NCBI RefSeq assembly: GCF_944324745.1
Contig: NZ_CALUXO010000046.1
Coordinates: 1-64,000 of the forward strand
DNA length: 64,000 nt
From: an uncultured Thomasclavelia sp.
GTDB taxonomy: Bacteria; Bacillota_I; Bacilli_A; Erysipelotrichales; Coprobacillaceae
Direction of reading: 5' to 3'
Shown piece after piece: positions 49,599 to 56,097 of the stretch; position 1 is the stretch's first letter; the number at the start of each line of letters is the position of its first letter. The translations under genes were made by a program, and so were the position numbers. Below the pieces are notes generated by a model. The model was given only the letters and a program-made list of their open reading frames with translations. It did not search any database and was not told where the DNA came from.

Positions 49599-49675
49599 CT
49601 TGACATATTGTTGGTTATTTTTTAATAACTTATGTGATATAATGAGTTATAAGTTTAATAAGCGAGGTGATTAAA

Positions 49676-50935
49676 ATGCGTCGTAATATTTATAATGCAA
49701 TATATTATTGTTTATTAGGAGTATTTTTAATTATGATAGCTATGTTAGCTTTGATCCAGCAAGAAAAATTTTTGCTTCATGTTTTTGATTTATTAGGAAT
49801 TATTTTAATTGTTAATAGTTTATATGAGTTAAGTGTATTTTATCGTCGTCATTTTAAAGGATCGCTATTGCAGATTGTCTTTAATCTATCAGGTGGTATC
49901 TTGATTATTTTATTTCCAGATATTCCAATTAGATTATTATTGATTATTTTTGCTTTATACATTACATTAAATGGGATAATCAAGTTTATTTGTTATTTAA
50001 ACTATAAAAAAGATCGCGTTAGTTATCGTTTGCATGTTTTGGTCGGTTCATTATTTTTGATTATTAATGGCTTAGCATTGCTGGGTGGTAATTATATGAC
50101 ATATCAAAATATAATGTTTTTTATCAGTGGTTATGGCATATTATTAGGGGTTAATTATATTATTGACGCTATTTTTATTATTATTCCCCAGCAACAAAGA
50201 GATAGCCTAAAACGACGCTTTCGGATACCATTACCGTTATTTATATCAGCATTATTACCAAAAGTGATGATGGATCATATCAATGAATGTATGAAAAAGC
50301 GAATAGAAGAATATGAAATTATTGAAGATAAAGAAGCTAATATTGAAATATGGATTCATGTTAGTGATGATGGTTTTGGAACAGTAGGACATTGTGATAT
50401 TTGTATCGATGAACAGGTAATTTCATATGGAAATTATGATCGTGATTCAATAAGTATGTTTGAAGCTATTGGAGATGGAGTTTTATTTATCGCTCCTAGA
50501 GATCGATATTTAAAGTTTTGTATTGAAACATACCAGCAGACAATTTTTAGTTATAATTTAAAACTGACAATAAAGCAACTTAACAGTGTAAAAAGAGAAA
50601 TTGAGCGGATGATGAAGCATACTTATAGCTGGTTCCCTCGAGCATATTATGAAAATAATTATTGTAAGGATTATGCCAGCAAGGTCTATTTAGCCACGAA
50701 AGCAGCCTTTTTTAAATTCAAGGCCGGAAGATTTAAAACTTATTTTGTTTTGGGTTCAAATTGTGTAAAATTAGTTGAAAAGATCATGGGTAAAGGTGGT
50801 TTAGATATTATTGATCTTAATGGGATCATTGCGCCAGGAACATATCAGACTTATTTAGAAAAAGAATTTCAAAGATTGAATGGATTAGTAGTTTCAAAAA
50901 ATATATACAACAGATTGACAAAGTATCCGAAATAA
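49676..50935 (+). CDS. DUF308-like membrane protein fused to a papain-like (NlpC-type) domain
   Basis: About 419 residues from the ATG at 49676 (GAGGTGAT upstream). Residues 1-170 form five or six membrane helices with the paired-helix pattern of HdeD/DUF308 proteins. The soluble C-terminal half begins IEIWIHVSDDGFGTVGHCDICID (His) and later has TYFVLGSNCVKLVEKIMG (Cys). This is the His-then-Cys order of permuted papain-like folds such as DUF4105 or LRAT-type enzymes. The fold call is tentative. A promoter for the following RNA lies within its last codons. Confidence 0.6.
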   Translation: MRRNIYNAIYYCLLGVFLIMIAMLALIQQEKFLLHVFDLLGIILIVNSLYELSVFYRRHFKGSLLQIVFNLSGGILIILFPDIPIRLLLIIFALYITLNGIIKFICYLNYKKDRVSYRLHVLVGSLFLIINGLALLGGNYMTYQNIMFFISGYGILLGVNYIIDAIFIIIPQQQRDSLKRRFRIPLPLFISALLPKVMMDHINECMKKRIEEYEIIEDKEANIEIWIHVSDDGFGTVGHCDICIDEQVISYGNYDRDSISMFEAIGDGVLFIAPRDRYLKFCIETYQQTIFSYNLKLTIKQLNSVKREIERMMKHTYSWFPRAYYENNYCKDYASKVYLATKAAFFKFKAGRFKTYFVLGSNCVKLVEKIMGKGGLDIIDLNGIIAPGTYQTYLEKEFQRLNGLVVSKNIYNRLTKYPK

Positions 50936-50943
50936 TTCATAAT
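50915..50943 (+). promoter_or_regulatory. Promoter candidate for the first small RNA
   Basis: TTGACA (50915-50920, inside the 3' end of the preceding gene), 17 bp, CATAAT (50938-50943). Confidence 0.5.
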
Positions 50944-50982
50944 TAGTCTGTATTATGGTTATGTCAAGGAAAACAATAATAC

Positions 50983-51052
50983 TGCATAGATGCCCCCTCT
51001 CCCATATAAATCATCTATGCATAAAAAGGAACAAGAAAATTGTTCCTTTTTT
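50983..51052 (+). ncRNA. Small RNA candidate A with C-rich loop
   Basis: Hairpin 1 has a 10 bp stem (TGCATAGATG 50983-50992 / CATCTATGCA 51012-51021) with a 19-base loop that begins CCCCCTCTCCC. Hairpin 2 is a terminator, GGAACAA / TTGTTCC with six Ts. There is no plausible ORF. The transcript may start near 50950. The loop is complementary to GGGAG/GGAGG-type ribosome sites, as in csRNA or RsaE-like regulators. No search was possible, so family membership is unknown. Confidence 0.65.
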
Positions 51053-51136
51053 CATATAATCAACTTATAGTTCATACAATGTTCATAAACATTTTGTACT
51101 ATATCATTGTCGTCAAGACAAGAGATAATATTAAAA

Positions 51137-51212
51137 GTATAGGTCACCCCCTTCTTCCCCAAATTCAATGACCTATACGTGAAAGGAAACGCTCCCCACG
51201 TTTCCTTTTTTT
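51137..51212 (+). ncRNA. Small RNA candidate B with C-rich loops
   Basis: It has the same architecture as candidate A but different stems: GTATAGGTCA (51137-51146) / TGACCTATAC (51169-51178), with a 22-base loop starting CCCCCTTCTTCCCC. The terminator is GGAAACG / CGTTTCC with a CTCCCCA loop and seven Ts. Since A ends in its own terminator, B must be a separate transcript. Both are preceded by GTCAAG-N7-ATAATA (50963 and 51112), a shared promoter-like motif. Confidence 0.65.
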
Positions 51213-51237
51213 CTAAGTTGATAATGAAAAAAAATTC

Positions 51238-51266
51238 TTGCTTGAATAATAAAAATTTGGTAGAAT
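51238..51266 (+). promoter_or_regulatory. pyrG promoter
   Basis: TTGCTT (51238-51243), 17 bp, TAGAAT (51261-51266), and a start at the GGGC beginning at 51273. Confidence 0.75.
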
Positions 51267-51272
51267 GTAAAA

Positions 51273-51313
51273 GGGCAATTAGATGTCTTCCTTAGGAAGG
51301 CATTTTTATTTTT
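51273..51313 (+). promoter_or_regulatory. CTP-sensing pyrG attenuator (GGGC start, pyrimidine-rich terminator)
   Basis: The transcript should begin GGGC (51273-51276). The leader terminator is ATGTCTTCC (51283-51291) / GGAAGGCAT (51295-51303), then TTTTATTTTT. In Bacillus pyrG, low CTP makes polymerase stutter extra Gs at GGGC, and the G tract pairs with the C/U-rich 5' arm and prevents termination. Every element needed is visible here. Confidence 0.8.
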
Positions 51314-53121: not shown

Positions 53122-53604
53122 ATGTATCGAATTGGACAATCAACCGATATTCATCAATTAGTACCAGGTAGAAAGTTAATAATTGGTGGAGTTGAAATAG
53201 AATCAGAATTAGGGTTATTGGGTCATAGTGATGCTGATGTCTTAAGTCATGCCATAATTGAAAGTATTATTGGTGCTTTAGGATTAGGCGATATTGGTAA
53301 ACATTTTAGTGATAGTGATGATCGTTATAAAGGAATCAGTTCGTTAGTTTTGATGGAAAAAACTTATGAAATGATGGATAAACAGGGCTATGAAATTAGT
53401 AATCTTGATGCTTTGATTTTGATTGAAAAACCAAAAATGGCACCTCATATTCCCAAAATGAAATCAAATATTAGTCGGATTTTAAAATGTGATCCCAATA
53501 AAATTAATATTAAGGCAACACGTGGTGAAAAACTGGGATTTATTGGTCGCAGTGAGGGAGCAGTTAGTCAATGTGTTGTGATGTTAAAAAAGAAAGGAAT
53601 TTAA
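53122..53604 (+). CDS. ispF: 2-C-methyl-D-erythritol 2,4-cyclodiphosphate synthase IspF
   Basis: MEP-pathway enzyme of isoprenoid synthesis, 160 residues. [14 protein letters not shown] and [32 protein letters not shown] carry the zinc Asp/His ligands. [17 protein letters not shown] ends the protein with the CDP-binding motif. AAGGGGTGA precedes the ATG. It is one base apart from gltX. Confidence 0.95.
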
Positions 53605-55296: not shown

Positions 55297-56097
55297 ATGA
55301 AAAATCGTATTATTGCAGTGATTTTGTCTTTTTTTATCGTTATTAATACTGTATTAATTGCTTGTGCTTTAAATGTTACTCCTTTAACTGTCAAAAGAGA
55401 AGTATTTGTCTATGAATATGGAAGTGCCATCTCAACAGCACCTCAGGACTATATTAATGCCAATGAATCGATATTGGAACAGGTAACATTAAACTTCTCT
55501 AATTTAAAAAATGAAATTGGTACTTATCACGTTTCAGCGACTTATTTAGGAGAGGAATATCCGTTTGTTATTGAAATTGTTGATACAACAAAACCAGTAT
55601 TCACATTAAAAGCCGTTACTTTTAATGTTGATTTAAATAAAGAAATATATGCAATCGATTTAATAGAAGAAGTTGAAGATAACTCAGATTATACAGCTTA
55701 TTTTATTGATGAAAATGGCGATAAGTCATTATCACGTTCATACAGCGAAAAAGGATCATATGTTGAAAATATATTAGTAGCAGATAGTGCTGGAAACGAA
55801 TCTTCATCATTAAGAGTGAAGATTGTCGCTGGTCAAAACGGTAATAATCCAACATTATCAGGAATTGATGATATCGAAGTGTTAAAAGATACTAGTTTTG
55901 ATCCGTTAAAAGATGTCAAAGCTACGGATGGTAGTGGTAATGATATTACAAGTAATATAAAAATATTAAAAAATAATGTTGATACTAGTGAAGTTGGTGA
56001 GTATGAAGTTATTTATTCAGTAACTAATGACAAAGGAAATACTTTACAGCGAACAAGAAAAGTAACAGTAGTAAAAACTGAAAAAACAGGTGATTAG
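55297..56097 (+). CDS. Secreted Ig-like (DUF5011-type) repeat protein
   Basis: 266 residues. A signal peptide (1-25, hydrophobic SFFIVINTVLIACALN) is followed by three beta-sandwich modules. The last (DTSFDPLKDVKATDGSGNDITSNIKI...VDTSEVGEYEVIYSVTNDKGN) is like those in the NlpC/P60 protein at 43202. It lacks an enzymatic domain, membrane anchor or clear sorting signal, though it ends in KTEKTGD. AGGAAGGTGAT precedes the ATG. The rhomboid gene follows with no gap. Confidence 0.75.
   Translation: MKNRIIAVILSFFIVINTVLIACALNVTPLTVKREVFVYEYGSAISTAPQDYINANESILEQVTLNFSNLKNEIGTYHVSATYLGEEYPFVIEIVDTTKPVFTLKAVTFNVDLNKEIYAIDLIEEVEDNSDYTAYFIDENGDKSLSRSYSEKGSYVENILVADSAGNESSSLRVKIVAGQNGNNPTLSGIDDIEVLKDTSFDPLKDVKATDGSGNDITSNIKILKNNVDTSEVGEYEVIYSVTNDKGNTLQRTRKVTVVKTEKTGD

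Follow-up and report, generated by a model that had tools for sequence, protein, structure and literature searches.

The window analyzed here is a stretch of 64,000 nucleotides from a Thomasclavelia-like genome of the Coprobacillaceae. Between a membrane gene (49667-50935) and pyrG (51345), positions 50950-51213 hold two independent small RNA genes, here referred to as A and B. They share one architecture, in which a 5' hairpin is followed by a second hairpin that bears a C-rich loop and then by a terminator, and each RNA is expected to be ~104 nt long rather than the 75 to 100 nt that had been predicted. Unit A reads GCATAGATG-CCCCCTCTCCCATATAAAT-CATCTATGC and then runs into its terminator, while unit B reads GTATAGGTCA-CCCCCTTCTTCCCCAAATTCAA-TGACCTATAC, followed by a terminator whose own C-rich loop, CUCCCC, the original prediction had overlooked. 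The individual features are as follows.

50915-50943, + strand: promoter of A, with TTGACA (50915-50920), a 17-bp spacer and CATAAT (50938-50943); the upstream membrane gene ends within it
50950-51052, + strand: small RNA A, ~103 nt, start predicted from the promoter and end from the terminator; fold z of -7.9; covariance model E of 1.9e-13; conserved in the genus
50950-50982, + strand: 5' hairpin of A, GTATTAT...ATAATAC, including GTCAAG; both arms identical in 8 genomes
50984-51020, + strand: main hairpin of A, stem GCATAGATG/CATCTATGC; compensatory stem changes with the loop kept
50993-51003, + strand: loop of the main hairpin of A, CCCCCUCUCCC (also given as CCCCCTCTCCC)
51023-51052, + strand: intrinsic terminator of A, from the fold; stem covaries
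51071-51102, + strand: promoter of B, with TTCATA-N5-TTCATA (51071-51087), N9 and TACTAT (51097-51102); conserved before the copies of relatives
51107-51213, + strand: small RNA B, ~104 to 107 nt, start predicted; fold z of -7.1; covariance model E of 3.5e-12
51107-51121, + strand: 5' hairpin of B, UUGUC-GUCAA-GACAA
51137-51178, + strand: main hairpin of B, stem GTATAGGTCA/TGACCTATAC; GGUCA/UGACC versus GGCCA/UGGCC among species; supported by pair counts as well
51147-51160, + strand: loop of the main hairpin of B, CCCCCUUCUUCCCC (also given as CCCCCTTCTTCCCC)
51181-51213, + strand: intrinsic terminator of B, with the C-rich loop CUCCCC, from the fold

The two hairpin-terminator units lie where they had been placed (50984-51052 and 51137-51213). 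Their reading as separate small RNAs was borne out as well, as A and B have separate promoters and fold more stably than expected, with 0 of 200 dinucleotide shuffles being as stable as either A or B. At a GC content of 31%, the C tracts do stand out: no site on the + strand of the window other than loop A has 8 or more C residues within 11 nt. However, GTCAAG-N7-ATAATA, which had been noted just upstream of both units, is not a promoter; it lies downstream of the -10 element, within the predicted transcripts, and is part of the 5' hairpins.

Covariation and distribution of the RNA family

A covariance model was built from 18 sequences, namely, the units upstream of pyrG in Thomasclavelia genomes, where both units recur with constant loops. 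In the genome studied here, the model identifies three copies: A, B, and a third on another contig (C73:66305-66371; E of 1.3e-5). The region of this third copy (G000:C73:66201-66371; L033 and L151) contains two C-rich hairpins with the loops UCCCCUC and UUCCCUCUCCC and a terminator loop, CUCCCC; in G005, the third copy is doubled in tandem. Within the family Coprobacillaceae, 30 of 43 genomes have matches at an E value of ≤0.1, usually with 1 to 4 copies, and 9 of 20 genera carry copies. An order-wide search at an E value of ≤0.001 returned 27 positive genomes out of 316, 26 of which belong to the same family. Furthermore, when 84,980 species genomes were scanned with a DNA pattern, 16 places matched, all of them in Thomasclavelia, Massilimicrobiota, Stoquefichus, or Longibaculum or in records labeled Erysipelatoclostridium, Erysipelotrichaceae, or Clostridiales VE202-01. 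A phage origin was considered and rejected, as the same pattern matched nothing in viral contigs. Judged by these comparisons of sequence, A and B belong to a real, conserved small RNA family that is specific to the Coprobacillaceae, with almost nothing outside. Additional short, terminator-ended RNAs with CUCCC are seen behind the promoter pattern described below at L144, L147, L156, and L130 (genera g7, g6, g19, and g3, respectively); they fall mostly outside the covariance model, and the regulon seems to be larger in those genera.

The covariance search of related genomes that had been proposed as a check yielded conserved loops together with compensatory stem changes, in line with the claim that conservation resides in the loop and not in the stem sequences. 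In an alignment of 40 copies, 94.8% of the pair cells hold standard pairs, 18 of the 19 pairs are changed on both sides, and the covariation score is 0.603; shuffles score 0.214 ± 0.014, and slid partners do not exceed 0.161. Since this alignment was fitted to the structure, the count was redone on sequence-only alignments. Alignment A5, which covers only the main hairpin in 17 sequences from several genera, is 96.3% paired, with 9 of 10 pairs double changed and a score of 0.432 versus 0.201. In alignment A1, helix 1 gives the same picture; agreement is poorer for the terminator, which was misaligned by MAFFT. Paired changes such as GAUG/CAUC versus GGUG/CACC in A parallel those listed for the B stem. 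All 40 main loops carry the motif (CUCUCCC in 31 and CUUCUUCCCC in 9), a count that holds partly by construction because C-rich loops went into building the model, and (U/A)CCC occurs in the terminator hairpin of 28 copies. The 5' hairpins behave differently from one another. The arms of the A hairpin are invariant and thus give it no covariation support; the UGUC/GACA of the B-type hairpin is kept in most copies with the response-regulator-type promoter, and in L016 both of its sides are altered (UGUAUC/GAUACA).

Promoters and candidate regulators

At all eight unit A loci inspected in Thomasclavelia, TTGAC-N18-[CT]A..[AT]T is followed after 6 to 8 nt by the 5' hairpin GTATTAT...ATAATAC; this spacing from the -10 element puts the first base of the hairpin at about +1. 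By sequence, the A promoter is of the consensus sigma-A type and looks constitutive. By contrast, B and almost every copy in other genera are preceded by TTCAYA-N5-TTCAYA-N9-TANNNT or a near form. Thus, the two TTCATA repeats reported at 51071 and 51082 are present, and the idea of a response-regulator-type repeat holds for B and for the third copy, whereas A has a sigma-A promoter instead.

The promoter pattern includes no part of the RNA and provides a test that is independent of the covariance model. A degenerate form of it has exactly two sites in the 2.76-Mb genome, one upstream of B and one upstream of the third copy, with none for a reversed-pattern control, and every strict site in this genome precedes a C-rich small RNA. 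In G000, G002, G005, G006, G018, G020, and G010, 14 of 14 sites precede small RNAs of this design, with one G010 site leading to an additional hairpin RNA with CUCUCCC that is absent from the list of the covariance model. Across 13 genomes, there are 46 sites, compared with 3 for the reversed pattern.

The pattern is also found upstream of an operon for an OmpR-family regulator and a kinase in genera g5, g6, and g7 (L136, L155, and L157), which makes this operon a natural candidate for autoregulation. A close orthologue of this regulator is absent from the genome studied here and from G002, G005, and G006, in which the best matches have 35 to 40% identity; as a general regulator, the box-bearing operon of the other genera is therefore untenable on its own. 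Two further candidates were set aside. The upstream regions of pstS carry TTTACA-N5-TTAACA, and this difference from the small RNA box argues against phosphate control by the Pho regulon. Control of the HtrA/CssR/CiaR-like type was rejected as well, as the TTCAYA box was not found before htrA in the cluster of a response regulator, a histidine kinase, and the HtrA protease (G000:C81:2863-5650), an order shared with several relatives. It is of note that pstS mRNA leaders (L095 to L124, e.g., L102 and L121) start with the 5' mini-hairpin of the small RNAs, UGUCUU..AAGACA, behind their different box. Control of B and the third copy by a response regulator is what the promoter repeats point to.

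Possible targets, function and relation to known RNAs

Matching the loops against ribosome sites, another check that had been proposed, yielded leads only, with a weak enrichment of LytTR genes (p of ~0.01). In six Thomasclavelia genomes, GGGAGAGG, the perfect complement of CCUCUCCC, lies immediately before the start codon of a few real genes, including LytTR regulators at four genes in four species (L208, L214, L218, and L221). When 29 LytTR genes were compared with 190 others, predicted pairing was somewhat stronger (p of ~0.009 for loop A and ~0.003 for loop B), with related genes being counted repeatedly, and we regard this enrichment as a weak lead. Within the window, the ribosome site of ispF (start at 53122), GAAGGGGUGA, is conserved in the genus and complements UCACCCCCUUC of loop B save for one bulged C. 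Ranking the window genes by duplex energy did not reveal a convincing conserved target site. The gene at 55297 was discarded as a target, as GGGAGAGGG is found in its G005 relative and is absent here, and GGGGAAG sites proved uninformative, occurring at only ~1 to 3 times the level of the reversed-pattern control per genome.

We consider it probable that A, B, and their relatives are trans-acting, C-rich base-pairing RNAs, with B and the third copy being driven by a response regulator, that lower translation at G-rich ribosome sites. Unit A would be transcribed from its constitutive-looking sigma-A promoter, whereas a response regulator of the OmpR/PhoB type would, once phosphorylated, bind TTCAYA-N5-TTCAYA next to the -10 element of B and the third copy and aid RNA polymerase. 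In the predicted transcript, the 5'-terminal hairpin probably protects the RNA against 5' exonucleases, and the main hairpin would present its C-rich loop, with the terminator loop often being C rich as well. The exposed, single-stranded CUCUCCC or CUUCUUCCCC could then pair with G-rich ribosome-binding sites and reduce translation. It is conceivable, although we think it rather unlikely, that in Thomasclavelia one two-component system acts almost only via such RNAs, which would control families of LytTR-type (quorum-sensing-like) regulators through perfectly complementary GGGAGAGG ribosome sites.

In Thomasclavelia and genera g11 and g13, the RNAs immediately precede pyrG, which could suggest that A and B act in cis, as leader or attenuator elements within a single long leader of that gene. 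However, A and B each have their own promoter, and pyrG has one too (TTGCTT-N17-TAGAAT, 51238-51266), located downstream of B. Most other genera have the RNAs at different places, for instance, by an ABC transporter operon or HAD phosphatases; in G006, both precede ispF-gltX, and the sole pyrG match, 61% identical, is elsewhere. Conversely, the leader of pyrG with its GGGC start and terminator persists in relatives that lack the RNAs. This reading is thus largely refuted, and we give it very little probability. The pyrG leader itself (51238-51310) has a predicted transcript start at GGGC (51273) and a terminator hairpin with CUUCC in its 5' arm, both recurring in nearly all relatives, and presumably resembles leaders in which CTP control works through reiterative G addition, as in B. 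subtilis. Scarcely credible is the notion that A and B are short conserved peptide genes or functionless tandem terminators: there is an ATG at the A stem and intergenic terminators are common, but the sequence changes preserve pairing, loop lengths vary by non-multiples of 3, stops break the frame in relatives, and the promoters and the invariant loop are conserved. The layout of promoter, hairpin, and terminator is rigid, and no conserved reading frame was found.

A different function for the same RNAs would be that of C-rich decoys for a protein, such as an RNA-binding regulator or a cold-shock protein, that do not bind mRNAs. An exposed pyrimidine-rich motif in several loops per RNA would suit this role, being a feature of protein-sequestering RNAs, as would a stem that varies among copies around an unvarying loop. 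Sponges of the CsrA type have GGA rather than CCC, and the loops are not the same in A (CUCUCCC) and B (CUUCUUCCCC), as would fit two RNAs with different target sets. Moreover, base-pairing RNAs of low-GC Gram-positive bacteria usually carry loops that complement ribosome sites (PMC4132741), and we hold a decoy function to be improbable.

Returning to base-pairing RNAs, none of the 4,227 Rfam families reached its gathering score anywhere in the window, consistent with the predicted independence from the csRNA and RsaE families. The LhrC and RsaE models did not match the locus even at an E value of ≤10, nor did the LhrC and RsaE/RoxS models match seven other loci at an E value of ≤1; ctRNA_pT181 and STnc40 (E values of 0.02 to 0.07) were dismissed, as they score far below their thresholds. 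The open-access papers searched contained nothing specific on this RNA family and no regulatory small RNA for the Coprobacillaceae. As far as we have searched, the family is undescribed, while its kind, C-rich, multicopy, and mostly response-regulator-promoted base-pairing RNAs, is already known. The family belongs to abundant gut bacteria of humans and animals, the Coprobacillaceae, and its clear covariation, defined promoter, and handful of copies per genome make it ready for direct tests.

RsaE/RoxS and other C-rich small RNAs of Bacillus and Staphylococcus have a C-rich single-stranded motif that is presumed to bind Shine-Dalgarno sequences; the family described here shares such a motif and differs in architecture, copy number, and the missing match to the Rfam model. 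LhrC1-5 of Listeria monocytogenes are multicopy, tandem RNAs whose expression needs the two-component system LisRK and which use UCCC motifs in hairpin and terminator loops to block ribosome sites (PMC4132741). Short RNAs in multiple and tandem copies, the hairpin-terminator layout, and UCCC in both loops are seen here as well, the last in 40 of 40 main loops (partly by construction) and 28 of 40 terminators, with B having both and A only the main loop. The likeness to LhrC thus lies in CUCUCCC/UUCCCC motifs exposed in one or two loops of a short RNA that ends in a terminator. The third motif of LhrC, in a single-stranded linker, is LhrC's own, unit A lacks a response-regulator box, and LisR had no agreed binding sequence in the LhrC study (PMC4132741), whereas TTCAYA-N5-TTCAYA is clear here. 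The streptococcal csRNAs under control of CiaR, an OmpR-type regulator, have TTTAAG-N5-TTTAAG before several related RNAs (PMC8186281, PMC3091779). They resemble B and the third copy in comprising several intergenic RNAs per genome, each with a terminator and, beside the -10 element, a direct repeat with a period of 11 bp. They differ in box, C-rich loop, stems, and lineage; Rfam gave no link, and no CiaR orthologue was identified. Homology to LhrC and the csRNAs was sought with Rfam models and not found, and the resemblance appears to be one of design. Taken together, this further apparent case of multicopy, response-regulator-driven RNAs with C-rich loops suggests convergent evolution with LhrC and the csRNAs.
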